In this document: positions 139-35,038 of the stretch, one piece after another | Layout: the number at the start of each line of letters is the position of its first letter | How positions within the stretch are numbered: position 1 is the stretch's first letter | From: Ianthella basta | Lineage: Eukaryota; Porifera; Demospongiae; Verongiida; Ianthellidae | Assembly: GCA_964019415.1 (NCBI GenBank) | Contig: OZ025888.1 | Coordinates: 121,001 to 185,000, forward strand | Length of the DNA: 64,000 nt | Direction of reading: 5' to 3' | Translations under genes and position numbers: made by a program | Notes under the pieces: generated by a model | Databases searched by the model: none | What the model saw: only the letters and a program-made list of their open reading frames with translations | What the model was told of the DNA's origin: nothing

Positions 139-3100
139 ATGGGACTGCATTTGGCTTGCATGCGAGGTAAAGCAGCAGAAGTGAGACGACTCATTCGAAA
201 TGGCCACAATGTGAATGCGTACGACATGTTTGGGTGGACGCCACTGCATAGGGCAGCTGCCATGGGCCAGGTGAAAGCTGTTAAAGAGCTGATCAGGGCT
301 AAAGCTGATGTTCAGCTTAAGGTCAAGATGCCTAGTAGAACTCCGCTGCGCATTTTTAATCGTGGCTGTCTCCTGTTCCTGAAGTTCATGTACCTGATAA
401 TCTTCAAGATCATCTTGGACATTGACATTGGATTAGATGAGCATGATACTGCTATGGAGGGCAGGACAGCTCTGATGTTGGCTGTTGTGAATAGGCGTAG
501 TGCTGTTGTAGCTGAACTGGTGAAGGCAGGAGCAGACGTTAGCCTCAAGGACAAGAAGGGGATGACTGCTGTTCTACTTGCAAAGAGCTATGACATGGTT
601 GGCCAACTGGTTAGGGATGTAAATGACCTATCGAGGGAGGATCGCAGTCGCATTCTCTGGCATGCATGTGATGTAGGTAGGCTGCGCATGGTGCAGTCTG
701 CCATTGAAGCAGGATGTGATGTGGACCACATTCACAAGGGTCAGACCCCAGTGATGATGGCAACACTGAGAGGCCATGACAGCATAGTCAAGGAACTGAT
801 CTTAGCCAACTGTGATGTGAACTTGTACAGCAAAAGGTACTTTAGCACCTTGGCGAGTTACCCTGAAAGGGCACTAATCCTTTTGTCGACAGCTGTTGTA
901 TGGATGGCAGTAGTGGTTGCAGGGATAGGGCCTTTAATGACATTAATGCCAGATACATTAGTACCACTGTGGATAGATCAACTGACAGGCTCACTGGCAC
1001 TGCTTGCAGCACCACTATGTGCCATTGTGGGGGTCTTGTGCCTGCCACTGACATGTCCTGTGGCAACATTGGTATCACTGTTGGTTGGCAGGGCTGTGGC
1101 GATGATGGCAGTAGTTGCAGCAGTGGCAGGCCCAGAGGTCTGGGTATTGGCTGTAGTAATGGCTATAGTGTTGCCGTGGTGGATGTGGGGACCAAAGGCA
1201 ACCATGGCAGTGTTGGTCAGTGTCTTTGTGGCCATTGGTTGGGCTTTAGTGATTAAAATAATTGCACAGTTGTTGGTTGCTGCTTGTCAGATGGCAGGCC
1301 AGGATGCTTTGGTGACAGGAATATTGGTGATGGCAGGGATATTGGTGATAGCAGCAGTCGTGGTTTTAGTGGCAAGAGGTACGTTCAAAATAAAGTGTAA
1401 TTGGCGAGTGGTCGTTCTAGTGGGATGGGTTAGTTTTCGAGCAGTTTTCACAGACGGACCAACATGGCCTTGGATAAAGAAAGATGCTGTTGCAAATTAC
1501 TTCATTGATACGATGATGCTATGGCTGTTACTGTGCAAGGCCCCCAGAGTTACAGCCCTGCACTATGCTGCTAGTTACAACCATATCAAATGCGGATTCC
1601 TTCTTGTGGAGGCTGGAGCAAACATGAGAACCAAGAAACGATGCCTCCAGACTCCCTATGAAATTTTATCAAAGAGGCTAGTAGATGAGGTCAAACAGAC
1701 ACTCTCTTTTACTGCAAAGAGGATCGTTGCAGTGATTGGTCACACTGAATGTGGCAAGAGCACACTAATAGCAGCCCTAAAAGCTGAGAACAAGAGATGG
1801 TGGATGAAAGTTATTAACCGTTTCCGAAAGATACACATCAGGCAACGAACAACAGGCATTGAAGTGATCCACTTTTCCAGTCAGAGTTACAGTGAAACAA
1901 TGTTTTATGATTTTGCAGGTCAGTCTCAGTACCACGGTCCACACCAGTCCTTCCTGGAGGCCATGCTGAGCAAACCAGAAGTCTCAGTGACCCTGCTGCT
2001 TCTAGTGAAGGCCACTGAAGAAGAAGATATCATCACAGAGCAACTCTACCGCTGGCTGCAACCCCTAACTCAGGTGTCTTCTTCATACACTCCACAATTG
2101 ATTGTTGTTGGCAGTTTCTCAGACCAAGTCAAATTGGGATCATCTGATAAAAAGGAGGATTTTGCTAAACTGCTACGATGCACCAAGTCAGTGCAGGATG
2201 AGTTGTCTTTGACCATTCAAGCCTGCTATCTTCTCAATTGTCGACAGCCTGAATCTAGAGGCATCAATCAAATCCGCACTATCTTTGAAGAAGTCCAGAT
2301 CTTCCAGTTGAACTCCAAGTCTCTCTCATACAATCTGCACTGGGTTTTGGTGCAAGTGCGAAAGGCATTCTCAGTTCCAGCTGTACGACTCGATGAGTTT
2401 CAGACATGGCTGCAGGACAATGCTAAAAAACTCCCCAGGAACCTCCCCACACCAGAGGAGGTGTGTCAGGACCTCTCAGCGGCTGGTCACACACTCTTTC
2501 TCCTGAACAAGCTGGACTTCTCCCAAAGTTGGCTGATCTTAGACGTCCCTGCCCTTCTCCATGATGTGTACGGCACCTTGTTCAGTGGGTCCCAGAGCAA
2601 AGTTAATGAGTTTGGTCTCCTCCACTGCAGTCAGCTGAATGAGCTGTTTCCTGACATGGATTCAAAGATAATCCAAGGAGTCCTCATTAGCCTTGAGTTT
2701 TGCACCCAGATTGATCCAATATTGCTGAGGGGTGAAGTATTGCAGTGTACCAGTGATAAAGGACGAGAAGGATGGCTGTACTTCCCTGCTCTAGTATCGA
2801 CCCTACCGCCTGAGGCGTTTCCAGAGGATCCAGACCCGGAACAGTTCCAGTGGCTGTGCTGGCAACTGAGGACGGCTAAGAAGCACTTCATCTCTGCTCA
2901 TCTTCTCCAAACCATCATCCTCCGTCTTGCAGCTAATCATGTGTTTGCTTGCAAATTGTTTCCCATTGTCACAGAGCACGGCTGCAGTGTGTGGATGAAT
3001 GGCCTTTCGTGGAGGTCCACCAAAGATGTGGACATAGCTGTCCAGATAAGCGACAGTAGTGTGGTCCAGGTTGTTGGACGCAGCAAGGCTGGATCTGAGA

Positions 3101-4479
3101 GACTGCACAGATACACATCGACTGTTGTACAAGATATCGCCAAGACAATTGCCCAGCTGTCTCCGAAGCTGGAGGCCACACCCTACTTTGTCCACCCGTA
3201 CACACCCACTTTGTGGAAGGACCCAAAAGCTGCTCCGCCTGACTTACTCTATCCCATGTCAAGTATTTTTCAATGTATGAAAGATGGTAGTAACCGTCTT
3301 CTACCCCTACCACTAAGCACCAGCTCTGTACCTCCTAGTCAGTTTTCTGGAGGAGAGTCGACGACTTCACCTGTACAAGACTTGAATTATCCAAAGGTAG
3401 CTCAAAGTGGTGAGTTGGGAATGGGAAGGGTGACTGTGCTGTAGGATTGATTGGTAGGGGGCAAGAAGGAGCCATGAGGTAGGGTAGGGACGAGAAGGAG
3501 CCGTTATGCTTACTAGGACATGATAACATAGATATTCATAAATGTGTGCATCATGATACTATAGGATAGCTTAATGACCTTTAATTGCAGCATAGACGTC
3601 AGTGGAGTTACATTTAGAATGTTTCAATCTGTAGATCTATTGCAGCTATAGGTGATATAGGCGATAAGTGTGACTTGTTTTATATGAGTGGATGTGTCAG
3701 TGGGCGTATGAGGCTGGATGGAAATTGCAAAGTGTAAAGTGATGTAATGGAAATGTATAAATAAGGAGATGACATTGGGATGTGTTCCTCCCTCTACCCC
3801 TTGATTGGTATACCTGACCACCTCAACAGTACCCTCTTTATTCCCAGCCATCTCTCCGTAATCTTAATCCTTACAGCTTCTTCTTATTTACATAGACACT
3901 TCTGCAGCATCATGCAATTTCCTCATGGTGTGCTTATCACCTACATCAGTAACAGCTGCAGAGATTGCTGGATTGAAATGTGTAAATTACTCTGCCATCA
4001 TGTAGCACACAGCATTGTATTATTTAATTTCTTCAGTTCATGTGTGCTGTTAGTATCACAGCAAACAATGTACGTATTATATCACTTTATATATGGCATG
4101 TGTTGTGTATGTTATGCCATAGCTTTTCCTTCTCTTCTCAGGCTCCTCCGAGGCTCCCCTCAATCCCCTCCTCTCCACCCCCAAGCGTAACAAGCTCAAC
4201 CAGCTAGTGGTATGGCGAATGGCTGCGCAGTGGTATGCACTGGGGTTGTCCCTGGGGGTGGAGCCAGCAGTTCTGGACGCCATTCAACCCGAACCCCCCC
4301 ACAATGTTAGGCAAGCATGCCTCGACATGTTCCATGAGTGGCTGTCCCGAGGTCCAGGCACTGGGGAGCAGCCTCGTGTGTGGCAGTCTGTCCTGGAGGC
4401 TGTCAAGGAGATAATTGGGGAGAAGGTTGCTGGAGAGGTTGAGCGAGAGATGATCCTTCAAGCCAGCTCACCACTGTAA
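139..4479 (+). CDS. Array gene 1: ankyrin / multi-pass membrane / Roc-COR GTPase / death-domain protein
   Basis: Two coding exons: 139-3409 and 4142-4479 (about 1202 residues). The donor is GTGAGT at 3410, phase 1; the acceptor is CTTCTCAG at 4141. Residues about 1-240 are ankyrin repeats (NAYDMFGWTPLHRAA, GRTALMLAV, GQTPVMMATLRGH), interrupted by a hydrophobic stretch (CLLFLKFMYLIIF). Residues about 245-470 are a cluster of hydrophobic, probably membrane-spanning segments. Another ankyrin motif (TALHYAA) follows, then a P-loop GHTECGKST near residue 534, a Roc-like TTGIE switch I and DFAGQ switch II near 590. The usual NKxD motif is not evident; GSFSDQVK is in its place. A COR-like region follows. 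Exon 2 encodes a death domain (LNQLVVWRMAAQWYALGLSL to about residue 1190). The order matches DAPK1 without its kinase. A signalling role at a membrane is inference. Confidence 0.85.
3410..4141 (+). other. Intron of array gene 1
   Basis: A phase-1 GT-AG intron between the giant exon and the death-domain exon. I see no embedded gene. Small open frames here do not resemble proteins and are not shared with the other copies. Confidence 0.75.
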
Positions 4480-4517
4480 GTGAACAAGTGTGAATGGTGA
4501 GTGAAGGTGTTCGTACA

Positions 4518-4716: not shown

Positions 4717-4799
<83 letters not shown>

Positions 4800-5306: not shown

Positions 5307-5307
5307 C

Positions 5308-5667: not shown

Positions 5668-5974
5668 ATGCCAATGTACTCCTTGACATTGCCTCCAAGC
5701 CCTCACTACGAGAGCTGGATGAGCTTGCCCACATGGAAGACAAACTCCCCCTCCACCTCGGTGTGGAGCCTTGTGTGATAGCAGCAGCGATAAAGAACAA
5801 CCCCAACAACTGTGAGAGGCACTTCGCGGGGTCCTTGACAGATGGCTGAAGGGTGCTCGTAGCACCGGAGGGGAAGACAGAACTTGGGGCTCTGTCTTGA
5901 GAGCTTTGGAGAAGAGCAGGAAGGGAGAGCTAGCAGAGCAACTCAGGACAGAGTGGTTCGCAGTGTATATCTAA
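5668..5974 (+). pseudogene. Broken second death-domain exon (unit 1/2 junction)
   Basis: After an acceptor (CACCCCTTTCATCAG) the plus strand reads DIASKPSLRELDEL and HLGVEPCVIAAAIKN, a death-domain-like helix pattern diverged from the array's main death domain. The frame stops at 5849. A one-base shift near 5820 restores continuity through WLKGARSTGGEDRTWGSVL to a TAA at 5972. Related copies are at 15895-16230 (minus) and 26881-27215 (plus), each disabled differently. Probably the last exon of an ancestral upstream paralogue, carried along by the duplication. Confidence 0.7.
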
Positions 5975-8799: not shown

Positions 8800-11700
8800 A
8801 TGGCACTGCACAGAGCTTGCATTTTGGGTAAAGCGGGAAAGGTGCGACAGCTCATACAAACTGGCCATGATGTGAATGCGTATGACGAATTGGGATGGAC
8901 ACCACTGCTGGGGGCAGCGTACGGTGGTCGCATGGAGGTTGCTAGAGAGCTGATTAGAGCCAAAGCTGATGTACACCTTAAGGTCAGGGAGTCTGGCAGG
9001 AGTGCACTGCACATTGCTGCCTACTACGGTCACCAGTCACTGGTGAAACTCTTCTTGGAGACCGAGGTCAACATCAATGAGCAGGATGATGAGGGCAGGA
9101 CAGCCCTGATGTTGGCTGTGGAGAGAGGGCATAGTGCTGTTGTAGCTGAACTGGTGAAGGAAGGAGCAGACGTTAGCCTCAAGGACAAGAAGGGGATGAC
9201 TGCTGTTCTATTTGCAGATAGATATGACGTGGTGCGTCCACTGGTGAATGACTGGTGTGACCTTTCCAACGAAGAGCAAAATCGTGTATTTTGGTATGCC
9301 TGCGAGGGTGGTGATTTAAGAATGGTGCAGTCAGTTCTAGAATTTGGTTGTGATGTGGACCACATTCACAAGGGCCAGACCCCATTGATGATGGCAACAC
9401 TGAGAGGCCATGACAGCATTGTCAAGGAGTTGATCTTGGCAGGAAGCAATGTGAACATGCAAAGCCACATTTACTACACTGATGTGAAAAGTTCTGTGAA
9501 AATGGCAGTGGTATTCTGGCCACGGGTAGCAACATGGCTAGCATTCCTTGTTGCATTAATATCACCTGTCTCTGTTGGACTTGCAGTGGAGCCAAAATTT
9601 GGTTCAGTGCCTGGGTCAGGGGCAGCTGCAATGGCATTGGTTGTGGCCTTGGTTGGGTCACTTATTGTGCCGGGCTCAGGAGCTGGCTCACTGTTAGGGG
9701 CAGGTGTGATTGGCATACCAGTGGCATTGTTAGTGGTGGTGGCAGCAGTTTCAGGTCCAGGAGCATGGACTATGTCTATAGTGATGGCCATAGTAGCTAA
9801 TTTCATAGTGCAGGGACGCTCAGTTGCTGTTTGGATAGTTGTTAGGGGTTTTGTTTTTCTTTTATGTATGAGTTTTATAGTAAAGGTAAGAGAAGAAATA
9901 ATTGCAAGAACAGGATCCTATTACTTGCCTGCATTGGCATTGGGGTGTTTTGTTATTCCTGCAATCCTGTATGTGGCAAAGGATGTCGCTGTGTCAATGG
10001 CCAAGAAAGGAATAATGGCAGCAGCACTTGAAACAACAGTGACAATTGTTGAGTTAATTGCAGTGGTAGTATTGGCAGTTGCAGCAGTGTCTATGTCAGT
10101 GCAGTGGGTAGGATTCGCAGGGATAGCTGGACTACAGCCTATGTTTATGTGTGGTTATATTGTATTAACAATGACTTCAGCCAAAGCTGGCAATGCTACA
10201 GCTCTGCACTATGCTGCTGGACACAACCGTATTAAGTGTGGAGTCCTCCTTGTGGAGGCAGGAGAAGACTTGACAGCCAAGAATAAACGTTTGTGCACAG
10301 CATGGGATAATGCATTGGAAAGATTTGTAAATCGTATTAATCAAACTTGGTTCTTCTCAACACGAAAGATCATAGTAGTGATTGGCAATGAGGAACTTGG
10401 CAAGAGTACGCTCATAGCAGCTCTGGAAGCTGAGAGCAATTATCTTTGCAAGAGGTTGATAGATTATTACTTCAGAAAAGTGCGTGACATCAGGCAGCGG
10501 ACAGCTGGCATTGAAGCAATCAAATTCTCCAGTAAGAAATATGGAGAGGCACTGTTTTATGACTTTGCAGGTCAGTCTCAGTACCACGGTCCACACCAGT
10601 CCTTCCTGGAGGCCATTCTGAGCAAGCCAGGAGCATCAGTGACCCTACTGCTTCTAGTGAAGGCCACTGAAGAAGAAGACATCATCACACAGCAACTCTA
10701 TCGCTGGCTGCAACCTCTAGCTCTGATGTCCATTCCAATCACGCCTCAAGTGGTTGTTGTTGGCAGTTTCTTGGACCAAGTCAAATCAAAGAAGGAAGCA
10801 TCTGAAAAGCTGCTGCGATGCAGTCAGTTAGTGAAGACTGAATTAGCCTTGGACATTCAAGGTCCCTGTCTCCTTGACTGCCGTAGGCCCGTATGCAAGG
10901 GTATCAATCAGTTGTGCATTTTGCTGAAGCAGATAAGGCCCTACCAATTGAGTACAGGCACCCTTCCATACAACCTGCATTGGGTTATGGTACAAACAAG
11001 GAAAGCTTTCTCAATTCCAGCACTACAACTCCACGAGTTTCAGACATGGCTGCAGGACAATGTTGCAAACCTCCCCAGGAACCTTCCCTCACCAGAGGAG
11101 TTGTGTCAAGACCTCACCGCAGCTGGTCACACCCTCTTCCTCCACAATAAGCAGGTCATATCCCAAAGTTGGCTCATCTTAGACCTCCCGTCCATTCTCC
11201 ACAATGTCTACGGCACCTTGTTCAGTGGGCAGGGAAAGGTCAACCAGTTTGGTCTCCTTCATTCTAGTCAGCTGACTCGGCTGTTTCCTGATTTGGACAA
11301 AATGATGATTCAAGAAGTCCTCAGCAGCTTGGAGTTCTGCATTGAGATTGACCCATTGCTGCTGAAGGAGGAACTATCACAATTGACAGTGGATAGAGGA
11401 GGAGAAGGATGGCTGTACTTCCCTGCTCTTGTATCGGCCCAATCTCCAGAAGTAATCCCAGAGGATCCAGACCCAGAACAGTGTTCGTGGCTGTGCTGGC
11501 AACTGAGGACAGCTGAGAAGCACTTCATCTCTGCCCGTCTACTCCAAACCATCATCCTTCGTCTTGCTGCCAATCATGTGTTCACCCACGAGTTAGCTCC
11601 CAGGGTCAGAAAGCACTGCTGCAGTGTTTGGGTGAATGGCATTTCGTGGAGTTCTACTAAAGGAGTGGACATAGCAATCCAGATTAGCGACAATAGTGTG

Positions 11701-13485
11701 GTTCAGGTTGTGGGACGCAGCATGGCTGAACCTCAGGGATTGCAGGCATATGCAGCTGCCATCATACAAGACGTCACCGCAACCATTACTCAGCTGTCTC
11801 CAAAGCTTGAGGCCATACCCTACATCCTTCATCCATTCATGCATGAGAGCCTGAGATCCCCTCACCACAATACCATGTATCCTGTATCAAGCATCGTTCG
11901 CTGCATTAGCAATGGGGATAAATATATTCCATCATTGTCATCGAGCACCGTCCCTATTGATCAGCTGTTTGGAGGAGAGCTACCTTCATTGACAGCTGTA
12001 CAAGGCTTGAGCTATCCAAGGGTAGCACCGATTGGTGAGTTGACTGTTACAAAAAGGATGCATGAAGATGTGGAGGAAGTGATGGTATGGTGTGCAGTTA
12101 GTGTGAGGGACGGACATGCTTACTTCATGCTGTCCCTTCCTGGAGCTTGTAGTTATAACCACTAGCTGTTCCTTGCAATGCTATATATATGCCACTGCCT
12201 ATCTGTAGGACAATTTGGCTAATAGCGTGACAGTCGCTCTGTCAGGATATTATACGACATTATTGACGCTGACCAAATCACTATGAAATATTGCTGTTTT
12301 TTATCAGCAGAAATGAAAGTAGCACAGAAACTAACATTGTCATTAATTTTGCTGTAGTGCTGAAAATGCACTCAAATCACTGATTGTCTGTTTACCTTCC
12401 TTCTGAGCACTGGCTGTCATTACTAAAATACGTGTGACCACTCACACTAATTTGAGCTAGACTAATTTGCGATGCTCAGTCTAAGGCGCTTCCTCCTGAT
12501 AGTTTCCTCAGCAGACAGTCATATTCCTCCTTGGAGAGTTCTTCGCAACCTTGAAATTGAGTATTAACGGTTCTTTCCACAATGTTGCATTTCAAAACTC
12601 ACCATAATAGACTAGCTGTACATACGTGGGCAGACATTACGTATAAGTGCTAAAATTGGTCATACTCTCTACTTTCTGCCGGGTCTTCTCTGTAGTCTGC
12701 TGACATTCTCTGAATGTGCCGACCATCTTACACTCGTGCGTGTCTATCACAAGATGATGTACATTCATTAGTTTAGTTGAGCTAGGATGTGATTGGGATT
12801 CATTGACAATACGTACAGAAACATGAAGTGGCAGCTGTGATTGTACCAAAGCATTCAAGCAAGAATCTAGAGTCTGTTCATTACAATTCACATCACTACT
12901 GACAAAGTACTGTATGAACAGAGTTTCACTGAAGCATCTACATATATACCTTTGTTGCCTCCAGTCCTTCACCTGCACACATATTGGGGACCTTATGTGT
13001 TATGTGCATGGATCACAGCAAACGCTGTATTGGGTTGTTTCTATGGTGTGTTGTGTGTCTGCCCACTGGTGAGGGTGTGTGACTTATTACGTATATACAC
13101 ACCTGGCTATCACATTCTTGTATCCTAGTGATTTGCCTTCTCCTGTCCAGGTTCTTCTGAGACTACCTTCAACCTCTCCTCCACCCCCTCACTTAACGAA
13201 CTGAACCAGCTGGTAGTGTGCCGCGTTGCTGCCCAGTGGAACCCACTGGGGCTGTCCCTGGGGGTGGAGCCAGGAGCTCTGGCCATCATCAATGCAAATC
13301 ACCCTCGTGATGTTGAAGGAGCATGTAGGGACCTTTTCCTTCGATGGCTTTCCCGAGGTCCAGGCACTGGGGAGCAGCCTCGTGTGTGGAGATCTGTCCT
13401 TAGGGCTGTAAAAGACACATTGGGGGAGATTGTTTCTGGGATGATTGAGAAAGAGGCAGTCAATCAAGCTAGCTCACCCCTGTAG
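8800..13485 (+). CDS. Array gene 2: ankyrin / membrane / Roc-COR / death-domain protein
   Basis: Exons 8800-12034 and 13151-13485 (about 1189 residues), with donor GTGAGT at 12035, phase 1, and acceptor TGTCCAG. An in-frame TAA at 8794 fixes the start. This copy keeps a fully canonical ankyrin run near residues 60-110 (SALHIAAYYGHQSLVKLFLE) where the other copies have a hydrophobic helix. The hydrophobic block spans about residues 230-440. The P-loop GNEELGKST is near 528, TAGIE and DFAGQ follow, then the COR-like region. The death domain begins at LNELNQLVVCRVAAQW. Of the four copies this looks the least altered in its ankyrin array. Function is as for gene 1 and is inferred from architecture. 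Confidence 0.87.
12035..13150 (+). other. Intron of array gene 2
   Basis: Phase-1 GT-AG intron. Nothing recognisable inside; it is not obviously similar to the corresponding introns of genes 1, 3 and 4. Confidence 0.7.
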
Positions 13486-17942: not shown

Positions 17943-17987
17943 ATCAAACATAGCAGCGGATCACTTTAGAGACAGGTGGTAAGTGAT

Positions 17988-20900
17988 ATGGCATTGTACA
18001 GAGCTTGCGTTTGGGGAAGAAAAGATGACGTGAGGCAGCTCATTCGAGGAGGCCACGATGTGAATGCATATGATGAATCAGGGTGGACACCACTGCTGGT
18101 TGCAGCCTATAATGGCCATGTGGAGGTAGCTAGAGAGCTGATCAGAGCTAACGCTGATGTAAACCTCAAGGTCAGGGAGTCTGACAGGAGTGTGCTGTAC
18201 ACTGCTGCCTACTACATTTGCCAGGCATGGGTGAAGTTTTACCTGTTGGTGATGTTCATCTTAAGAGTGGATGAGCAGGCTGCTGGAGAAGTGGTCGGAG
18301 CCAACTCTGATGTACTCCTTAAGGTCAGGGGATCTAGCAGGAGTGTGCTGTACACTGCTGTCTACTATGTTTGCCAAGCATTTGTGAAGCTAAGTTTACT
18401 TATAATGAATCTCATGATGAATGTTAGCTACGAAATAGATGAGCAGGAGTTTAGTTTTGAGGGCAGGACAGCCCTGATGTTGGCTATCCAGAGAAGGCAT
18501 AGTGATGTTGTAGCTGAACTGGTGAAGGCAGGAGCAGACATCAGCCTCAAGGACAAGAAGGGGATGACTGCTGTTCTACTGGCAAAGAGCTATGACATAG
18601 TTGTCCAACTGGTTAGGGATGTAGATCATAAACGCCTGTCAAGGGAGGATCGCAGCCGCATTCTCTGGCATGCATGTGATGTTGGTGACCTGAGCATGGT
18701 GAAGTCTGTCATTGAAGCAGGTTGTGATGAGGACCACATCCACAAGGGTCAGACCCCAGTGATGATGGCAACACTGAGAGGCCATGACAGCATTGTCAAG
18801 GAGCTGATCTTAGCCAATTGTGATGTAAACCTGCACAGCAAAGGGTACTTTAGTGACTTGGCGAGTTCCTTGAGTATGGCAAAAGTGATTTGGCCAACAC
18901 TTGTGGTGTGGATTGGGTTTGTGGTTGCATTCTTTGGATCTGTGCTATCATCACTTGACAACAGAGTAGTCCCATCATGGGTCAATCCAGTGACAGGCTC
19001 AGTGGCAGTGCTTGTGTCACCTGTATGTGCCACTGCAGGAGTTATGTTCCCATTTTCTTGGCCCATGGCATTATTAATGTCATCATTGTTTGTTAGTTCT
19101 GCGGTGACAACACTGGCAGTAGTGGCAATGGTGGCTGGCCCAGAGTGCAGGGCACTGGCACTTGTTATGGCCTTGGTAGTACCATTGCTGATGTGTGGAC
19201 CAAGGGCAATTATGTCAACAACAGTTATGGCATTTAAATTTATTTTAAGATTTGCTTTGTTTATTTTAGTCTTATTATTATTAATTTTTGTAGTAGTGCT
19301 GGCAGGTCTGGCAGACTGGTGGCCATATTTATTGACAGTAGGGTTTGCAGTAATTGTAGTGAATAGTATTGGTCAGTCAAAAGGTAACTGGTACAGTGAT
19401 ATGCAAGCTACGCTTTCAATGTTATGGTTTGTCTTTGTATTCTTTCTATGTCAAATATTGGTTCTGGCCCGGTCATGGACGAAACATCATGCTCAGTCTG
19501 TTATGATATATATACTGATGATGGCATGGCTGAATGTGTACAAGGCCTCCAGGTCTACAGCCCTACACTATGCTGCTGGACACAACCGTATCAAGTGTGG
19601 AGCCCTCCTTGTGGAGGCAGGAGCAGATGTGAGGGCCGAGAATATATGCAATTTTAGTCCATTGGAAATTGGCTCCAAGACATTTGTAGATGAAGTGCAA
19701 AAAGTTGCATCTTTCACCACCAAACGTGTCATTGCAGTGATTGGGAACTCTGAACATGGCAAGAGTACACTGGTGGCTGCATTGGAATGTACGAGTGGCA
19801 TTCTTTGGAAGAAGGCAGTCAATCGCTTCAAAAAGGTACGTGACATCAGGCAGCGAACAGCTGGCATTGAAGCAGTTCAGGTTTCCAATCAGAAATATGG
19901 AGAGGCACTGTTTTATGACTTTGCAGGTCAGTCTCAGTACCACGGTCCACACCAGTCCTTCCTGGAGGCCATGCTGAGCAAACCAGAAGCCTCAGTGACC
20001 CTGCTGCTTCTAGTGAAGGCCACTGATGAAGAAGACATCATCACACAGCAACTCTATCGCTGGCTGCAACCTCTAGCTCTGATGTCCATTCCAATCACAC
20101 CTAAAATAGTTGTCGTTGGCAGTTTCTTGGACCAAGTCAAATCAGAGAAGGAGGAATCTGAAAAATTGCTGCGATGCACTCAGTCAGTGAATACTGAGTT
20201 AGCCTTGGACATTCAAGGTCCCTGTCTCCTTGACTGCCGTCAACCTGAGTCAAAAGGCATCAATCAAATTTGCGCCTTACTTCAAGAGGCCCATCCAGTG
20301 AACACTAAAGCTCTCTCATACAATCTGCACTGGGTCTTGGTGCAAGTGCGGAAAGCATGCCCTTTTCCAGCACTGCCACTACATGAGTTTAGAGACAAGG
20401 TTGTGAACCTCCCTAAGAAACTTCCCTCACTCAAAAAGGTGTGTCAGGACCTCTCAGCAGCTGGCCACACACTCTACCTTCCCAGCAAGCAAGTCCGCTT
20501 CAAAAATTGGCTCATCTTGGATCTACCTGGCCTTCTCCACACTGTGTATGGCACCCTGTTCAGTGGCTCCCAGAATAACAAGTTTGGTCTCCTCCACTGC
20601 AGCAAACTGGCTGAGCTGTTTCCCCAGTGGGATCAAGAGATGGTCCAAGAGGTCCTGATCAGCCTTGAGTTCTGCATTGAGTGTGATCCTACACTACTGA
20701 GAGAAGAAATGGCAAGACTGACCGTGGATGCAGGCTGTCTGTACTTCCCTGCTCTGGTATCAGCCCAACCTTCCAAAGTCTTCCCAGACGATCCAGACCC
20801 AGAACAGTTCAAGTGGCTGTGCTGGCAGCTGAGGACAGCTGAGAAGCATTTTATCTCTGCCCGTCTTCTCCAAACAATCATCCTCCGTCTTGCAGCCAAT

Positions 20901-22498
20901 CACGTGTTCACCCATGAGTTGTCTTCCAGTGAGAGAGAGCCCTGTTGCTGTGTTTGGGTTAATGGCCTTTCCTGGAGGTCCACTAAAGGAGTGGACGTTG
21001 CAGTCCAGATAAGTGACAGTAGTGTGGTCCAGGTTGTGGGACGCAGCAAGGAAGGACGTAAAGAACTGTTCAAATACGTGTCAACTGTTGTCGGGGACAT
21101 CACCAAGACCATTTCCCAGCTGTCATCAAAGCTGGAGGCCACACCCTACATTGTCCACCCGTATGCACCCACTTTGTGGAAGGACCCAAAAGCCATTCAG
21201 ACTGACTCACTGTATCCTGTGTCAAGTATCAATCGCTGCATCAGCAATGGTGATCGATACGTTCTCTCCCTGTTGAACAAGGATGATGATCATCCTCAGC
21301 AGATGAGCCTGTCTGAGGTGTTCGGATGGTTGCCTTCACTGCCAGTTGTCCAAGACATGGACTTTGCAGACCCATCATCCAGTAGTGCTGGTGAGTGGAA
21401 TGCAGCAATTGTTTTACCTTTTCAGTTACAATCTGTACCGTCATATGCAGGTAGGCAAATTCAAGCCTGTATTGTGCTATATATAGTACCTGGAAGCTAT
21501 AGGAGTGTTTGGTTGAAATACCTTTAAAGGGACTCTTCAGTTGGTCTTTTGTAGCCAGCCCATTTTCTGCCATTTGCATGTACACATTTTGCTCACTTTG
21601 CCTGTTTTCAGGCAGTTCTGCCATTTGTGCATGTTTCATGTACTCCACCTGCTTTCAGGTGAAGCGAGCAAAACACGCACAAACGATGGAAACAGGCTGG
21701 CTACACGAGACTACTCTTCAGCAGTCTTTAACAAGTATTTCGAGTTAAAAAACTCGTGGGGCGCCAGGGCGCCCCTGAACCTCGAACTACTTGCTAGCAA
21801 TTTTCCCATGTACGTTCAGTAAATCAGATAGTTGGGGGTACAGTATTGTTGTTGGTCTGAAAGATACATCAAGACACACTAGACCGTTGGGTTTGAAAGA
21901 GTTTCAAGTCTCCAGAGCAGCCAGTCATATCCAGTGAAAGCATCCCTACCAAACTGTCAAATGTTTGCCTACTGCTTTTTGATCTATATGACATTCTAAA
22001 TGAGCAATTGTTACTTTGTGCCTGGAGGAGGAGTGTGCTGGCTAAAAGGCTACCCATGATGACTATATGAGCGAATCATGGCTATATTCTGTGTCATGAC
22101 TCGCTTCCATTATTGGCCTTCGGGTCACAAGACTTCTGTTGTATTTAGGGCTGTACCTCGCAGAAAAACAGTTAAGTAAGCTTCCTACCACAATAATATT
22201 ACTTAAACATGTTCTAGAAACACTTTGCGTTCTTTGGATACACGGTGAAATCTAAAGAGAATGGTTTTGAGCCTAGCAAACAGAAAGCGTCGAGCGCGCG
22301 GCCATTTTACAATGTCCGTCAGTAATAATTGGAGCTGTATCTCGCAGAAGAGACGTTCCTTAGGCTTTTTATTAGTATCACTCTATTAACACATGTTTAT
22401 GACCACATTTCGTTCGATTCAAACACGGCGAAACGTCATTAGAGAGGATTTAAAGCTTTGTAAAGAACGACGTGAGCGCCGCCATTTGCAAAATGACA

Positions 22499-22533
<35 letters not shown>

Positions 22534-24447
22534 ATACATATAGTACGGTAGGGAGGTCTATAGCCGATATATAGGACCGAGGCGCTTACATATTTACCGA
22601 GGCGCGAAGCGCCGAGGTAAATATGAGCGCCGAGGTCCTATATAGAGGCTATAGACCGACCTACCGTACTATATGTCTTATATAGTATGGTGAGTGCGCA
22701 ACAGGAACGAACCTTCTGCAGCAATATCGAGCCTAGACCTCTCGGGCGACGACGCCATTTGCATTCCATAAGCGCCTGCATTACGTCACTGAACCTTCTG
22801 GAACGGGCTACGGCACCATTGCATTCAGTAGACGCCACCGTGACGTCACAACAAGCTTCAGGACTGACCAATGAGAATACTGCGCGCCTATTGGCAGTAC
22901 GCTGACCAATGAGATTACCGAATTCAAAATAATGCACAGTCAGCAGTTTAGGTTGTGGCCGTGACAGGGTGCTGCACGGAGAGTCCTGAAAACGCTTCTT
23001 TTCTGGCAGAACACCTACTTCGATGCGGACTCAGAACTAGAGGGGACAATTTTAACCACATTTGAGAGCTTTCGACGATATCCGGCTGGACTTTGTGTTC
23101 GTCATCTGAAGAAGTCGCTCAACGGACCGTGTCTGCGCGTATTCCACGCCATAGTTTCGCGCAACAGAGCCGGACTCAGTGCTCGTGTCCTAGAATACGT
23201 TCCTTTACGCATGTATCTTGTCCAACTGACTTTCCTTCGTGCGACGATTTTTAGCGGTCGCGTTCTTTCTTGGAGCGTCAAGATCCTCCGCAGCACTGAT
23301 TGTCACGGCCACAGTGAAATGGTAAGACTGCTTCGCCTGACAGTACACACATTTGGCTCTGGTTTCATTACATCCCTTCTTGATATCAGACCTGTTGCGC
23401 AATCAGAGCTTTGATATCGTGATATCAGACCTCTTTTCAGGTCTATATCACATATATAGGACCACCTGTCAATGCTTAAATCCCTATAGTTGCGCAATCA
23501 CCATACTATATATATATATATATATATACGAACATGAAGCCATACGAAGACCTAAATCTGAAAACAATATAGGGGCGCCTTCGGCGCCCCAAAAATTCCT
23601 CTGTTTGTAAACTGTATAAAGCATCAAACACTTATGCCGTTTACAAAATGTTAGCTACATTTTGAGTCATTTGTCAATGTTGATCGGCAATTGAGCTAGT
23701 GGCATCATTCAGCAGCCAATATTCTCATTCAAGTAGCAGCAGTTGAAACAAGAAAGAATGGCACAAGCATGTTTAGACCATCTGAGACTGAGAATGGCCT
23801 GGTGCACAACGGTATTTCTGTACCAATAGGAGACGCCTCTGCAATAAGTGAACAGAGAGTGCACAAGCTGTATCTCTTCTGGGTACTTTAAAGATGGCCA
23901 TTTAGGTGGTAAATCAATCGATGTTTTATCTTATTCAAATAAAATGTATTTTGTACCAGAATTAAGTGGACATTAATATTGTGTGTACTGAAGTCGGCAA
24001 GGTCACACAACATGGACACTAGTGTACAGCCACACAAGTCACAGTAGTGTTTACTGATTGTATGTTCTGATTTGTTCCTTTCTTCTCCTGTTAGTGCCGT
24101 CCGAGGCTCCCCTCAACCCCCTCCGCTCCACCCCCACACTTGACGAACTCAACCAGCTAGTGGTGTGGCGAGTTGCTGCCCAGTGGTATGAAGTGGGAGT
24201 GTTCCTTGAGGTAGGAGCAGCAGTTCTGGACACCATTCGCACAGACAACCTCCACAATGTAAGACAGGCATGTCGTGACATGTTCCGTGAGTGGCTGTCC
24301 CGAGGTCCAGGCACTGGGGAGCAGCCTCGTGTGTGGCAGTCTGTCCTGGAGGCTGTCAGGGAGACAGTGGGGGAGACAGTTGCTAGAGAGATTGAGAGAG
24401 AGTCATTTCCTCAAGCCACCTCACCTCTGGAGGTGAACCATGATTAG
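17988..24447 (+). CDS. Array gene 3: ankyrin / membrane / Roc-COR / death-domain protein
   Basis: Exons 17988-21390 and 24095-24447 (about 1251 residues), donor GTGAGT at 21391, phase 1, acceptor CTCCTGTTAG. An in-frame TAG at 17967 supports the ATG. The ankyrin part contains a duplicated segment of about 50 residues: two versions of RSVLYTAxYYxCQAxVK, each followed by a hydrophobic helix. This makes it the longest copy. The P-loop GNSEHGKST is near residue 585, then TAGIE and DFAGQ. The COR-like region lacks about four residues present in the others (EFRDKVVNL in place of EFQTWLQDNxxxL). Death domain: LDELNQLVVWRVAAQWYEVG. The intron carries about 2.2 kb of extra DNA relative to gene 4. Confidence 0.87.
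22537..22675. repeat. Long palindrome (about 139 bp)
   Basis: Arms of about 68 nt run from CATATAGTACGGTAGG to a centre GGCGCGAAGCGCC and back to CCTACCGTACTATATG, with few mismatches. It is preceded by an (AT)n tract. Would form a cruciform or hairpin RNA. Confidence 0.85.
22681..23510. mobile_element. 830-bp TIR element in gene 3 intron
   Basis: Ends TATAGTATGGTGAGTGCGCA and its near-exact inverted copy at 23489-23510 (one mismatch in 22) sit in TA-rich flanks, as expected for insertion at TA. Internal frames are short; one minus-strand frame has CVYCQAK but no transposase core was recognised. Absent from the gene 4 intron. Confidence 0.7.
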
Positions 24448-25456
24448 TGTGAATGGTGAGTGGGTGTGTCTGGCACACACAAAGAGGTTGCTTCACACTA
24501 CCATAGCTGACTGTTGAAAATGGCCTCCTGCCTGTGCCGTTTGTACATGCCACTCATGCACTGTCACTCACCTCGCATGCTTGTAGTGAAGAACCCCCTC
24601 TATAGTCGTACTTGCTGGTTGGATAACGTGTTCTTAACAAAATTAATTATTAACTGTTTATTACTTGATAGCTTACAGGAAGCAGTAGTTATCAGAGCCC
24701 AAGTCTTAGCTTGGGTTTCGCCAGAGAAGGTTCTGATAGCAGTACCTTCTCTAGTATAGGATAGGTACTGTGGAGTGTAAACACTCTAGTCCACATGTAG
24801 TGTCAGACACGAACAGGTTTGTTCTTGAGCAGCAAAAGCAAGGTGAATTAGGGAGTCATGTCAACCACGAGGGTCTCAGCAGTTGCTAAAATTTACGCAA
24901 ACTATTTTTGCTTGATAAGACCCTTGTGGTCAAAACGACTTGACCAATCCCATTTCAGTCTGTATGATCAAGTGCCTTTAGCCTTTACCACATCAGATGT
25001 AGTGTATGTTGCACACATGTACCAATGCACGCACACACACCCCACAGTGCTATTGCTGTCTATGCCGTTAACTGTTCCTTAGATGTCCCTTCTTCTCTTC
25101 CATCATTTGCAGCTCATTTGATGCTCCCAATCTCTAGCTGCAGGCACTGCCACATGTACATGACTCATATCACACTTGCACACACATCACTGCATATGGA
25201 ACATTTTGTCAACATTTTGTGTAACATTGCATTTATTGTAACAATATTTTGCAATTGCGCATTGTAATTGCACATGCATGCATATACACAGTAATTGTTA
25301 TTAATTATTATTATATCAATCATTTTCACCAGTAATCATTAAAATTTTATTATATAATTATAATTCATGATCAATAGTGAATTTATAAAGGCAATCATCC
25401 TATGCATTTAACGGCATTCATACTATCTACCTTCAAATTTGATCATGAGACATGCA

Positions 25457-25511
25457 TGTGAACTTTGACCTTTCCTGTTTCTGTCGTCAAAGCAGCTCCT
25501 CTGTAGGCCAT
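25457..25511 (-). pseudogene. Partial second fossil of YARS terminal exon (unit 3)
   Basis: Minus strand AYRGAAL..ETGKVKVH, truncated at both ends, matches the middle of YARS exon 17. An identical partial fossil is at 33989-34042 in unit 4. It implies an older internal duplication of the unit's 3' end before units 3 and 4 separated. Confidence 0.7.
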
Positions 25512-25574
25512 ATAGTCACGATCAAGAGGTACATCAAGATGAAGGCCAGGGGCTGGTTCTCAAGGAAGCTAGCT

Positions 25575-25670
25575 TTATGTGCATGTGTGTGTGTGTGTAC
25601 GTGCGTGTGTGTGTGTGTGTGTGTGTACGTGCATGTGCGTGTGTGTGTGTGTGTGTGTACGTGCATGTGC

Positions 25671-25740
<70 letters not shown>
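25575..25740. repeat. GT microsatellite (unit 3)
   Basis: (GT)n with ACGTGCATGTGC interruptions. The same tract with the same interruptions, expanded, is at 34108-34363. Confidence 0.95.
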
Positions 25741-25742
<2 letters not shown>

Positions 25743-26412
25743 TATTGTATAATTAAGGCATTCCAATTAAGGTTTCACATTGTGTGCTAAAAGCGAACTT
25801 GTGAAAACAATTTGGCATAATTATAATAACCATCCCATGGCTAGTTGCATAATACATGTAATTGCATTGTTACTCATCACCTCAAACGCTAACATGTAAC
25901 TAAGCCATCAGGTCACACTGACTGTGAGACTGATGAAGATGAAGATGCTGGAAAGCATTTAAGAGGAAGTTCAGAATTTAAGACGCACACACATGCACTG
26001 TATAGCTAGGCACACAACCGTACATGCATGCATATGCAACAACACACGCGCACTCACATACATCACAGTGCCATTACAGTAATGTATATTATCATCTCTC
26101 TTCTTGTCATCATCAGTTTCAGCTCATTCAACCAAATCTCCATGCATGGCCGGACTCTACACTGACTCATCACATGCATCACTACATGGAATAGGTATAT
26201 ATGGTGCAGCATGTTCACAGCTAGCTAGCAGTACTTATGAGACATTAATTCATACTATTATTGTCAACATTGTACACATGTATAGTGCACCCAATTATAT
26301 AATATGCAATAGATGATCACAATATTAATCATGTATAAATCTGTAGTTATATAATATTAAATTATTCGCTAGTTTGTCATTGATAATATAATTTATAGAA
26401 TAGTTGATTGTT

Positions 26413-26523
26413 CTATTTAACGGCCGCCTTTGTGAGACTGTGAACTTTGACCTTTCCTGTTTTTGTCATCAGAGCAGCTCCTCTGTAGGCCACTTCTAGC
26501 TGGTTGGTAGTTTGGAGGTCAGG
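26413..26523 (-). pseudogene. Fossil copy of YARS terminal exon (unit 3)
   Basis: Full-length 111-bp match to YARS exon 17 with frame, stop codon and acceptor all intact; the closest of the three full fossils to the functional exon. G-rich intron repeat follows at 26524-26640. Confidence 0.88.
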
Positions 26524-26684
26524 CTGAGGGGGGAGGAGAGAGGGGAGCAGAGGGGAGGGGAGGGGAGGGGAGAGGGGAGCGGAGGGAGAGGAGAGGGGAG
26601 CGGAGTGGAGGGGGGGGGAGGGAGGACAAGAAGAAAGAGGTGCATTGCTACGTGTGCACTATCATGTGACTGTCATGTGACTAC

Positions 26685-26880: not shown

Positions 26881-27215
26881 ATGCATGCCATTGCTCTAGC
26901 TCCTTGACATTGCCTCCAAGCCCATAGCTACTACGAGAGCTGAATGAGCTTGTCATTGGAGAGGTTGCTCACATGGAAGACAAACTCACCCGCCACCTCG
27001 GTGTGGAGCCTTGTGTGATAGCAGCAGTGATAAAGAACCACCCCAATGACTGTGAGAGGGCTCTTTGAGAGGTCCTTGACAGATGGCTGAAAGGTGCTCG
27101 TAGCACTGGTGGGGAAGACAGAACTTGGGGCTCTGTCTTGAGAGCTTTGGAGAAGAGCAGGAAGAGAGAGCTAGCAGAGCATGGCAATCTTTGTGACAGA
27201 GTGATATAATTATAG
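26881..27215 (+). pseudogene. Broken second death-domain exon (unit 3/4 junction)
   Basis: After the acceptor CTTTCATCAG the homologous frame encodes HLGVEPCVIAAVIKN, but an in-frame TGA interrupts (GCTCTTTGAGAG) and the 5' part is shifted. Downstream codons for WLKGARSTGGEDRTWGSVL are preserved. Same family as 5668-5974. Confidence 0.7.
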
Positions 27216-28003: not shown

Positions 28004-28020
28004 CGTGTGAAAAGGGGGGT

Positions 28021-28127: not shown

Positions 28128-29073
28128 TACTCTATCAGTCTATCATATCATGCCATATTGGTTACCTTACCCTCACTGTCCACTGTTCCTGAGACCAATG
28201 TCTACTATGCCTATACGCATAGTTCCACATAGCCCAGAACGCTCCTCCCTTCTGCTTCTAGTTCTGCATATTATCAGTTGGGGAGAAGAGTCTGGTCAAC
28301 AGCTTATGCAGCTTTGTTCTGAGTCTCCTGCAACAAGATGTGATAAACAATGATAAACATTATTGTGATGTACATGCAAATGAAGTGCGGTGTAAAGTGG
28401 CTGTGTGAATGAGTTGTAAAGTCCTGTAGCAGTTGTGCTGATGGCTACGTGGAATGGCAGCACTTGCATAGGATCTTTCTGACACTTTCCTCGTTACATG
28501 CAATACACCTTTTCATGAATATCATTATTTCCATGGCTACTGAATATTAATGAGCCCCAACTTCCATTCGGGCAGACCAAAAGCGATTATGTAGTTGACC
28601 AGATCATGTCATCTGTTTATTGTTCAAATGCCAATAGTGGCAATGAAAGAAAGGGTCTAGGCTACGTGCCTGTCCGCGCATGACATCACGATTAAATGGC
28701 GGGCGGATGGATGGGGTCATGGTACGAGACTAATCAGTTCATGCTCATCCTATGCATATAGTTAATGTGGTATGGTAGTAATGGAGGAAAGGGACTGGGC
28801 TACGTGAAACTACAGTGTACAGTAGCCAAATTATCAGGTTCAAGATGATCCAATGTTAACTGTGTGGCACTGTTGAGTGCTCCCCTTGCAGTGTTGTGTA
28901 ACATACATTAGTTCATGCCCATCCTATGCTTACAGTTAATGCGATAATGTCTTTCTTTAAGTGAGCAATGCTAGCATTGTTTGCAATCCTGCCTTGGTAT
29001 AGTCTTCTCCACTTTTCATCATTGCAGATCAAACATAGCAGCGGATCACTTTTCACGACAGGTGGTAAGTGAT

Positions 29074-32000
29074 ATGGCATTGTACAGAGCTTGTGTTTGG
29101 GGTAGAAAAGACGACGTGAGGCAACTCATTCGAGGAGGCCACGATGTGAATGCATATGATGAATCAGGGTGGACACCACTGCTGGTTGCAGCCTATAATG
29201 GCCATGAGGAGGTTGCTAGAGAGCTGATCAGAGCTAACTCTGATGTAAACCTCAAGGTCAAGGGGTCTGGCAGGAGTGTACTGTACACTGCTGAATACTA
29301 TGTTTGCCAAGTGTTTGTGAAGCTAAGTATACTTATAACGAATCTCATCCTGAATGTTTGCTACGAAATAGATGAACAGGAGTTTAATTTTGAGGGCAGG
29401 ACAGCCCTGATGTTGGCTGTGGAGAGAGGGCATAGTGCTGTTGTAGCTGAACTGGTGAAGGCAGGAGCAGACATCAGCCTCAAGGACAAGAAGGGGATGA
29501 CTGCTGTTCTACTGGCAAAGAGCTATGACATGGTTGGCCAACTGGTTAAGAATATAGATCGCAATCGCCTGTCAAGAGAGGACTGCAGTCGCATTCTCTG
29601 GCATGCATGTGATGTTGGTGACCTGAGCATGGTGCAGTCTGTCATTGAAGCAGGTTGTGATGTGGACCACATTCACAAGGGTCAGACCCCAGTGATGATG
29701 GCAACACTGAGAGGCCATGACAGCATTGTCAAGGAGCTGATCTTGGCCAATTGTGATGTAAACCTGCACACCAAAGTGTACTACAGTGACTTGGCAAGTT
29801 CCTTGAATTTGGCAAGACTAATTTGGTCAACAATTGTGGTATGCTTGTCGCTTTTGATTGTATTCTTTGGATCTTTATTGTCAGAAAGTCATGTGGCAAA
29901 GGTCCCATCATGGGTCAATCCAGTGACAGGCTCAGTGGCAGTGCTTGTGTCACCTGTATGTGCCACTGCAGGAGTTTTGTTGCCATTTTCATGGCCCATG
30001 GCATTATTAATGTCATCATTGTTTGTTAGTTCTGCGGTGACAACACTGGCAGTAGTGGCAATGGTGGCTGGCCCAGAGTGCAGGGCACTGGAACTTGTTA
30101 TGGCCTTGGTAGTACCATTGGTGATGTGTGGACCAAGGGCAATTATGTCAGCAACAGTCATGGCATTTGGGTTAATTATAAGAGTAGCTTTGTTTATTTT
30201 AGTCTTATTATTATTAGATTTTGTAGTAGTGCTGGCAGGTCTGGCAGACTGGTGGCCATATTTATTGACAGTAGGGTTTGTGGTAATTGTAGTGAATAGT
30301 ATTGGTCAGTCCAAAGGTAACTGGTACAGTGATATGCAAGCTACACTTCCAATGTTATGGTTTGTCTTTGTATTCTTTTTATGTTACATTTTTGGGCTGG
30401 CCCGGTCATGGACGAGGCTTCTTGCTCAGAATATTACGATATTTATAGTGTTGATGATGGCATGGCTGAATGTGTACAAGGCCTCCAAGTCTACAGCCCT
30501 ACACTATGCTGCTGGACACAACCGTATCAAGTGTGGAGTCCTCCTTGTGGAGGCAGGAGGAGACGTGACGGCCAAGAATAAATGCAATTTTAGTCCATTG
30601 GAAATTGGCTCCAAGTTATTTGTAGATGAAGTGCAGAAGGTTGCATCATTCACCACCAAACGTATCATTGCAGTGATTGGGAACTCTGAATATGGCAAGA
30701 GTACACTAGTAGCAGCATTGAAACGTACGAGTGTCATTCTTTGGAAGAAAGCAGTTAATTACTTCATGAAGGTACATGACATCAGGCAGCGAACAACTGG
30801 CATTGAAGCAGTTCAGGTTTCCAATTCGAAATACGGAGAGGCACTGTTTTATGACTTTGCAGGTCAGTCTCAGTACCACGGTCCACACCAGTCCTTCCTG
30901 GAGGCCATGCTGAGCAAACCAGAAGTCTCAGTGAACCTGCTGCTTCTAGTGAAGGCCACTGAAGAAAAAGACATCATCACACAGCAACTCTATCGCTGGC
31001 TGCAACCTCTAGCTCTGATGTCCATTCCAATCACTCCTCAAGTGGTTGTTGTTGGCAGTTTCCTGGACCAAGTCAAATCAAAAAAGGAAGCATCTGAAAA
31101 GCTGCTGCGATGCACTCAGTCAGTGAAGACTGAGTTACCCTTGGACATTCAAGGTCCCTGTCTCCTTGACTGCCGCCAACCTGAGTCAAAAGGTATCAAT
31201 AAAATTTGCACCTTCCTTCAAGAGGCCCGTCCAGTGAACACTAACGCTCTCCCATACAATCTGCACTGGGTTTTGGTGCAAGTGCGAAAGGCATTCTCAG
31301 TTCCAGCTGTACGACTCGATGAGTTTCAGACATGGCTGCAAGACAATGCTAGCAACCTCCCCAGGAACCTCCCCACACCAGAGGAGGTGTGTCAGGACCT
31401 CTCAGCGGCTGGCCACACCCTTTTCCTTCTCAACAAGCAAGACCTTGCTCAAAGTTGGCTGATCTTGGACCTCCCAGGCCTTCTCCACAATGTGTATGGC
31501 ACCTTGTTCAGTGGTTCCCAGGACAGTGTCAATAAGTTTGGACTCCTCCACTGCAGTCGGCTGAATGAGCTGTTTCCTAGACTGTGTCCAGAGGTCATCC
31601 AGGGAGTCTTGAAGAGCTTGGAGTTCTGCATTGAGATTGATCCTACACTACTGGGAGAGGAGTTATTACAGCTTGCAATGGATAAAGGAGGAGAAGGATG
31701 GCTGTACTTCCCTGCTCTGGTATCAGCCAAACCTTCCAAAGATTTCCCAGAGGACTCAGACCAGAACCAGTTCAGGTGGCTGTGCTGGCAACTGAGGACA
31801 GCAACAAAGCACTTCATCTCTGCCCATCTCCTCCAAACAATCATCCTCCGTCTTGCAGTCAATCACGTGTTCACCCACAAGTTATCTTCCAGTGTGATAG
31901 AGCACTGTTGCTGTGTTTGGGTGAATGGCATCTCCTGGAGGTCCACTAAGGGAGTGGACATAGCTGTCCAGATAACTGACAGTAGTGTAGTCCAGGTTGT

Positions 32001-32967
32001 TGGACGCAGCAAGGAAGAAGCTAAAGAATTGTTCAAATATGCATCAATTGTTGTCAAGGACATCACCAAGACCATTACCCAGTTGTCATCAAAGCTGGAA
32101 GCCACACCCTACATCGTCCACCCGTACACACCCACTTTGTGGAAGGACCCAAAAGCCATTCAGACTAACTCACTGTATCCTGTGTCCAGTATCACTCGCT
32201 GCATCAGCAATGGTGATCGATACGTTCCATCCCTGTTGAGCAAGGATGGTGATCATCCTCAGCAGATGAGCCTGTCTGAGGTGTTTGGATGGTCTCCTTC
32301 ACTGCCAGTTGTCCAAGACATGGACTTTGCAGACCCATCATCCAGTAGTGCTGGTGAGTGGAATGCAACAAGTGTTTTACCTTTTCAATTATTGTTTAAT
32401 TTGTTGATCAATAATCAGCTAGTGGCATCATTCAACAGCCGATATTCTCATTCTGCGATGGCCTGTTGTGCATGGCTATTTCTGTACCAATAGGAGATGC
32501 CTCTGCAATCAGTGAACAGAGAGTGCACAAGCTGTATCTCTTCTGGGTACTTTAAAGATGGCCACTTAAGTAGCAAATAGATTCATGTTTTGTGCCCCTT
32601 CCTTCTCCTGTTAGGGCCATCCACAGCTCCTTTCAACCCCCTCCTCTCCGCCCCCACACTAGACGAACTCAACCAGCTAGTGGTGTGGCGAGTTGCTGCC
32701 CAGTGGTATGAAGTGGGAGTGTTCCTTGAGGTAGGAGCAGCAGTTCTGGACACCATTCGCACAGACAACCTCCACAATGTAAGACAGGCATGTCGTGACA
32801 TGTTCCGTGAGTGGCTGTCCAGAGGTCCAGGCACTGGGGAGCAGCCTCGTGTGTGGCAGTCTGTCCTGGAGGCTGTCAAGGAGACGGTGGGGGAGACGGT
32901 TGCTAGAGAGATTGAGAGAGAGACATTTCCTCGAGCTACCCCACCTCTGGAGGTGAACCATGATTAG
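29074..32967 (+). CDS. Array gene 4: ankyrin / membrane / Roc-COR / death-domain protein
   Basis: Exons 29074-32353 and 32615-32967 (about 1210 residues), donor GTGAGT at 32354, phase 1, acceptor CTCCTGTTAG. Closest relative is gene 3: the same MALYRACVWGRKDDVRQLIR start, one hydrophobic ankyrin-derived helix (FVKLSILITNLILNVCYEID), and hydrophobic block about residues 250-470. P-loop GNSEYGKST is near residue 536, then TTGIE and DFAGQSQYHGPHQ. Its COR segment EFQTWLQDNASNLPRNLP is nearer gene 1 than gene 3, suggesting gene conversion. The death-domain exon is nearly identical to that of gene 3. Its 3' end converges on the 3' end of YARS. The upstream frame is open to 28981, but by homology the ATG at 29074 is the start. 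Confidence 0.87.
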
Positions 32968-35037: not shown

Positions 35038-35038
35038 T

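Follow-up and report, generated by a model that had tools for sequence, protein, structure and literature searches.

In a 64,000-nucleotide stretch of the genome of the sponge Ianthella basta (contig OZ025888.1, positions 121,001 to 185,000 of the forward strand; hereafter the window), four plus-strand genes spanning window positions 139-32967 each consist of a giant exon and a small death-domain exon. With modest confidence, we regard them as members of a large family of membrane-anchored Roco proteins that lack a kinase and are arranged as Ank(about 5)-membrane block-Ank(1)-Roc-COR-death, and which would cluster their death domains when GTP-loaded. Our analysis established the domain order (COR less firmly), the pairing of the exons, the hydrophobicity of the block, a single change in block presence across the family and the pattern of selection.

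An earlier note on this DNA had described four paralogues with a shared two-exon layout, the second being a separate phase-1 death-domain exon, and our data confirmed both points. Giant open frames lie at 136-3444, 8797-12165, 17970-21527 and 28975-32493, all on the plus strand. In all four genes the giant exon is open for 1,078-1,134 codons up to its donor and encodes, in order, about five ankyrin repeats (the first coinciding with the first Met), a hydrophobic block, one ankyrin repeat, the GTPase and a long C-terminal part. A phase-1 donor G|GTGAGT and a frame-compatible acceptor before the death exon are intact in 4/4 window genes and delimit an intron of 261-2,704 bases. Over the 124-kb stretch around the window, the donor ends the giant exon in all eight copies and a phase-matched acceptor precedes the death exon in seven; the exceptional copy, outside the window, has a split giant exon and, judged by eye, seems to have lost some sequence in a small deletion. 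The reading frame is also broken in a copy upstream of the window. Of 22 death-exon motifs in the genome as a whole, 17 are situated 1.8-4.4 kb 3' of a same-strand Roc motif, compared with 3/22 for the 5' side and 0/22 for the opposite strand; two more of the 22 come after giant exons without an exact Roc motif. When 20 loci were taken with 1.5-kb flanks, 13 had a death exon of the main type inside the flank; that of L016 (gene 3) lies farther off, L023 has a second type only, and the other five have none within the flank. Assignment of the small exon to the death-domain fold was supported by a profile of 38 aligned members, which matched CRADD (8.9e-6) and PIDD (0.0056) among PDB sequences, RIPK1 (1.2) not being significant; by Pfam Death, matched by 29 of these 38 members at E <= 0.1; and by a model of gene 4's exon with six helices and a mean predicted local distance difference test score (pLDDT) of 85.4. 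A C-terminal death domain, one of the features that define the DAPK1 group of Roco proteins, is present.

Within the giant exons, ankyrin families scored well over the Pfam cut-off in all four genes, and the GxxxxGKST P-loop and DFAGQ switch II reported in the earlier note are found in each of them. MMR_HSR1 was at or over its cut-off in three of the four, and Roc exceeded its own in P0059 (30.1 bits) and P0007 (28.5 bits) among the relatives scanned. Residues G534, K535 and T537 of the P-loop, D588, A590 and G591 of switch II, and D659, which we read as the fourth GTPase motif, are invariant across 90 aligned relatives; on the strength of these invariant rows and of the relatives over the cut-off, we assigned a Roc GTPase domain. 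An AlphaFold2 model of the gene 2 exon (mean pLDDT 68.9) showed well-folded ankyrins followed by a GTPase-like part and, after Roc, helical and then beta-rich secondary structure. Used as a Foldseek query, it returned, among ankyrin hits, LRRK2 (8fo9_A, E 4.5e-14, 608 columns) and LRRK1 (8e05_A, 3.4e-13, 643 columns). Ank, Roc and death in the previously claimed order Ank-Roc-COR-death were thus recovered, and COR less firmly, having no Pfam match. The genes also proved kinase-less, as claimed, insofar as three forward frames scanned upstream of each gene yielded no Pfam match at E <= 0.1, distant exons being possible and the scan for gene 1 covering only the 1,391 bases before the window, with window bases 1-138 outside it. 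Neither NACHT nor any LRR family matched at E <= 1 in the window genes, so the NACHT-LRR combination of NLR proteins was not found there; the relative P0007 exceeded the NACHT cut-off (28 bits), but its best stretch consists of 20 residues at the P-loop.

The expansion suggested earlier was borne out within this genome. On the contig that carries the window (C21), the interval from 104 to 460 kb (~356 kb) holds 17 Roc motifs, which with one copy lacking the exact motif give an array of at least 18 copies if broken ones are counted, and at least eight further copies lie on contig C16; since the locus search scored 39 of 943 candidates, locus counts are lower bounds. The genes are tandem, as stated, but the array continues beyond the window on both sides and the four are not one recent set. 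The top 120 of 460 relatives at E <= 0.001 (7,998 candidates scored), the four window genes among them, provided 117 members for an unrooted Roc-COR tree once two fragments and an odd protein had been dropped. It contains 33 proteins whose block is short (A), 24 whose block is longer (B) and 60 that have none (C); gene 1, gene 2 and genes 3/4 fall in three parts of it, genes 3/4 being nested among B forms. Block presence changes once on the tree, with a Shimodaira-Hasegawa-like approximate likelihood ratio test (SH-aLRT) value of 100. One gain and one loss fit equally, and we infer that the change was a gain. We rejected the idea that the length forms A and B make clean clades, the three groups together needing five changes. 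A death exon follows both class C loci examined, L036 (34% identity, E 2.9e-15) and L037 (32% identity, E 1.1e-13), and the death domain is therefore not peculiar to the block-bearing clade. This block-less group refines the earlier description, whose observation was confirmed and whose interpretation was partly supported, and the presence in one animal of close relatives that have the block next to others that lack it offers a natural comparison. Class C relatives on another contig (G000 C4:651369-1572686) have very long single open frames, the longest reaching 3,346 residues. Roc genes also form a distinct cluster at G000 C20:4.19-4.36 Mb (L005-L008 and others), where L005 shows, by eye, LRR-like sequence before Roc.

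The hydrophobic block of about 200 residues described previously is present in 4/4 window genes (218-223 residues), with a hydropathy of 1.36-1.48 and 6.0-8.2% charged residues, the Roc-COR regions of the same proteins having -0.03 to -0.14 and 19-21%. Its placement had to be revised: rather than separating the ankyrin repeats from the GTPase, it sits within the ankyrin stack, with one further repeat between block and GTPase. At its place, 14 of the 14 block-less relatives displayed have a short linker of the type VSS..WW..AAG joining two ankyrin repeats. The block fills the loop between two repeats, and both of its flanks are therefore predicted to lie on one side of a membrane. Among the 57 A and B rows, the 44 with both anchors (27/33 A, 17/24 B) were measured, and all 44 blocks are open, with a hydropathy of 1.09-1.59; the A and B forms of the block are homologous by hhalign (99.7%), and block length differs between clades. 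An unspliced intron was ruled out by this openness, hydrophobicity and homology. A free-standing origin was likewise rejected, as the searches made gave the block no convincing relative: with a profile built from the four blocks, none of the 8,000 free-standing candidates scored (proteins of ~132-420 aa) reached E <= 0.01 and no PDB sequence matched up to E 10, and Pfam gave just a weak CATSPERD match (E 0.038) in one of the four blocks. No relatives were confirmed in the prokaryote genomes or viral contigs searched, and a viral fold search, which returned mostly ankyrin proteins, was uninformative.

The gene 2 model has eight helices at 229-460, with ten-residue pLDDT means of 37-66; a stricter insertion scale gave 4, 4, 4 and 5 segments in the four window blocks, and an averaged hydropathy profile about nine. 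Of the earlier claim of a membrane-embedded, multi-pass protein, the strongly hydrophobic, multi-segment block stood, and membrane insertion rests on hydropathy and low-confidence modelled helices. The low model confidence and the 4-5 strict segments would also suit a buried or aggregating domain that does not span the membrane. We consider this very improbable: more than 200 residues at a hydropathy of ~1.4 and 6-8% charge are unlike the other parts of the same proteins, and the same strict scan found no segment within the first 400 residues of 60/60 block-less relatives. The block is presumed to be a multi-pass membrane-inserted segment, with which its hydropathy and charge are strongly consistent.

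Several observations weigh against the proposed architecture. The Roc profile scored 18.8-21.5 bits in all four window genes, under the Pfam cut-off of 27; these genes were not among the 150 scored of 446 candidates in a Roc profile search of their own genome; and parts of Roc, like the block helices (about 37-66), have low pLDDT in the gene 2 model. COR had no Pfam match in 4/4 window genes at E 1 or in two segments scanned at E 10, and the Roc-COR profile found no PDB sequence. Roc-COR is probably the part that matches LRRK2 and LRRK1 over ~600 columns, the aligned ranges not being printed. Segment counts for the block disagree: eight in the model, 4-5 on the stricter scale, on which the count is odd in gene 1, and about nine on the averaged profile. 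Single window death exons scored 15.4, no match, 20.4 and 20.2 bits against Pfam Death (cut-off 22.6), and two of the eight neighbouring copies are frame-broken. The predicted 5' end is provisional: in 4/4 genes a GCAG is followed ~40-60 bases on by a donor-like GGTAAG lying <=10 bases before the first ATG (window about 90-138, 8740-8799, 17930-17987 and 29010-29073), a pair that could reflect a short 5' exon or an alternative start.

We then considered how the parts of these proteins evolve, using omega, the ratio of nonsynonymous (dN) to synonymous (dS) substitution rates. By likelihood, omega in the window's four genes was 0.68 for the block, 0.54 for Ank, 0.47 for Roc and 0.44 for COR, all below 1. 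By counting, block omega ranged from 0.43 to 0.86 over the six gene pairs and block dN was the highest in five of them; for the gene 3/4 pair, COR dN (0.123) was slightly above block dN (0.114). Six C21 loci gave a block ratio of 0.71 (one locus being just a 577-residue piece). The values of 0.44-0.54 in Ank, Roc and COR of the window genes, together with their four open giant exons and intact splice sites, speak against an array of mostly decaying duplicates, pseudogenes or unexpressed copies, which we hold to be quite improbable although frame breaks affect two of the eight copies within the 124 kb, and some exons of the second death-domain type are broken too.

Mean identity of the block was 0.39 in A and 0.44 in B, versus 0.58-0.76 in other parts, the main ankyrin stack being conserved. 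A different pattern was seen in the eight C16 paralogues, where counting gave a block omega of 1.30 (bootstrap 1.02-1.68; dN <= dS in 4/300 replicates) and 0.33-0.45 for Ank, Roc and COR; the short last ankyrin repeat had 1.21 with a wide bootstrap interval (0.66-2.18). By likelihood, block omega reached 1.84 versus 0.57-0.64 for Ank, Roc and COR, and omega = 1 was rejected (p 6.9e-7). With gap-near columns removed (118/253 codons, 8 rows) it was 1.60 (p 0.007), and with three deletion rows also removed (168 codons, 5 rows) 1.43 (p 0.045). Diversifying selection on the C16 block is thus suggested rather than settled, conversion between tandem copies and the alignment of hydrophobic sequence being the hazards. 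Three C16 loci (L038, L039 and L040) miss the later part of the block.

Two roles of the block may be set against these data. It could be a mere fast-drifting membrane tether in which hydrophobic residues are freely swapped while the ankyrin repeats sense or scaffold. Hydropathy kept at 1.09-1.59 in 44/44 blocks despite low identity, length variation between clades, and omega under 1 both for the window genes and for the six C21 loci favour this possibility, which we nevertheless place on the unlikely side: free swapping predicts omega near 1, yet the C16 value exceeds 1, and the main ankyrin stack is conserved, not variable. Alternatively, the block itself would be the recognition part, a hypervariable intramembrane sensor of a membrane-active microbial product, lipid or partner receptor, the rest being constant signalling machinery. 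We view this as unlikely. Of all parts, the block shows the lowest conservation in the sets compared; its dN exceeds that of the others in five of six window pairs and, in C16, its omega is above 1 by both methods. However, omega is 0.68 and 0.71 in the window and C21 sets, the gene 3/4 pair reverses the order of COR and block, the C16 signal drops as gap-near columns are taken out, the short last ankyrin repeat of the C16 set is also above 1, with a wide interval, and gene conversion or misalignment can inflate omega. We are equally doubtful of the broader scheme of death-domain Roco receptors in which the block, inserted once into an ankyrin loop, became a hypervariable, positively selected recognition domain, that is, an innate receptor with its variable part in the membrane. 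The NLR-like sensing put forward in the earlier note is conjectural, the sole sign of diversifying selection lying in the block of the C16 paralogues and not in the main ankyrin stack or the window genes. Whether the block acts as anchor or in recognition is a question worth testing; if it is the variable part, it would make diversifying selection within the membrane domain of a cell-death-type protein amenable to test.

Under the membrane-anchored Roco explanation that we favour, a multi-pass hydrophobic block in one clade would occupy the loop between two ankyrin repeats and anchor the protein in the membrane, with the ankyrin stack and the GTPase on the same side, presumably the cytosol; both flanks being on one side, an even number of crossings would therefore be required. 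A trigger at the ankyrin repeats or the block might be relayed to Roc-COR, which would dimerise or change state with GTP, and the C-terminal death domains would be brought together to recruit death-domain partners in a PIDDosome-like manner. Membrane insertion, topology, GTP switching, death-domain signalling and any immune role are proposed here from knowledge of Roco proteins and death-domain platforms.

Table. Positions of the four genes, their parts and the second-type death exons in the window.
Feature	Position	Strand	Remarks
Gene 1 exon 1	139..3409	+	Ankyrin repeats, hydrophobic block, last ankyrin repeat, Roc, COR-like region, tail
Gene 1 hydrophobic block	868..1524	+	219 residues; presumed multi-pass membrane
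Gene 1 Roc-COR region	1654..3306	+	
Gene 1 exon 2	4142..4479	+	Death domain
Gene 2 exon 1	8800..12034	+	Layout as gene 1 exon 1; exon used for modelling
Gene 2 hydrophobic block	9502..10170	+	223 residues; 8 low-confidence helices in model
Gene 2 Roc-COR region	10324..11931	+	tblastn match
Gene 2 exon 2	13151..13485	+	Death domain; alone no Pfam match; 56% identity with gene 4's exon
Gene 3 exon 1	17988..21390	+	
Gene 3 hydrophobic block	18876..19529	+	218 residues
Gene 3 Roc-COR region	19659..21263	+	
Gene 3 exon 2	24095..24447	+	Death domain
Gene 4 exon 1	29074..32353	+	
Gene 4 hydrophobic block	29809..30465	+	219 residues
Gene 4 Roc-COR region	30595..32229	+	
Gene 4 exon 2	32615..32967	+	Death domain; modelled, mean pLDDT 85.4
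Second-type death exon	5685-5940	+	Frameshifted
Second-type death exon	15931-16206	-	Open
Second-type death exon	26934-27181	+	In-frame stop

Exons of the second death-domain-like type share about 30-44% identity with the main type, and more copies lie outside the window. In the relative P0147 a death exon is followed by sequence resembling the exon 1 tail, which hints at repeated death exons in some relatives. Elsewhere in the same genome, L041 (G000 C3:4697001-4702000) has an Ank-Roc stretch with Pfam Death (E 4.2e-7) in the same frame ~600 residues upstream, stops being read through. Genes 3 and 4 are 96-97% identical in their 3' flanks and 88% in their coding exons (window 18271-26625 vs 29204-35247), a pattern consistent with recent segmental duplication and uneven conversion. 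Dense minisatellites occupy window 36000-64000, for example 27-bp x 45 at 39014-40225, 20-bp x 55 at 54334-55442 and 19-bp x 64 at 61781-62985.

In open-licence PMC text (preprints outside scope), we found no described family with the order Ank-block-Ank-Roc-COR-death. The closest known systems share parts of it. DAPK1 carries ankyrin repeats before Roc-COR, as the window genes do, and the DAPK1 group has a calmodulin-regulated segment. The death domains of CRADD (RAIDD) and PIDD were the best PDB sequence matches of the death profile; these proteins carry CARD, LRR and ZU5 parts, which had no match in the Pfam scan of the window genes. LRRK1 and LRRK2 resemble the gene 2 model over ~600 Foldseek columns, presumably through a shared Roc-COR fold (the ranges not being printed), and differ from the window genes, which have no LRR, kinase or WD40 match and possess a death domain and a hydrophobic block. 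Among candidate immune receptors, the brown-algal ROCO genes are likewise expanded and clustered, with diversifying selection in one part (PMC11378527, PMC4104024); in the portions of that work drawn on here this involves LRR exon shuffling, as opposed to an internal hydrophobic block and a death domain (PMC11378527). The sea-anemone genes NG1 and NG3 similarly combine invertebrate Roc/COR with immune-type domains, and carry LRR and TIR, or kinase, death and TIR, an ankyrin-embedded hydrophobic block not being described in the sections concerned (PMC5094078). Roco proteins have been divided into three groups; in the relevant part of the review, the DAPK1 group lacks LRR, carries a death domain and has its kinase ahead of Roc-COR (Wauters et al. 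2019, PMC6337361). The window genes share the C-terminal death domain and the absence of LRR with this group, and differ from it in the block inside the ankyrin stack, the two-exon layout and the many copies; we did not file them as DAPK because no kinase was found upstream. As the death-domain Roco group is described there as a kinase group (PMC6337361), a large kinase-less expansion apparently embedded in a membrane through a block inside its ankyrin repeats would widen the roles of Roco proteins.

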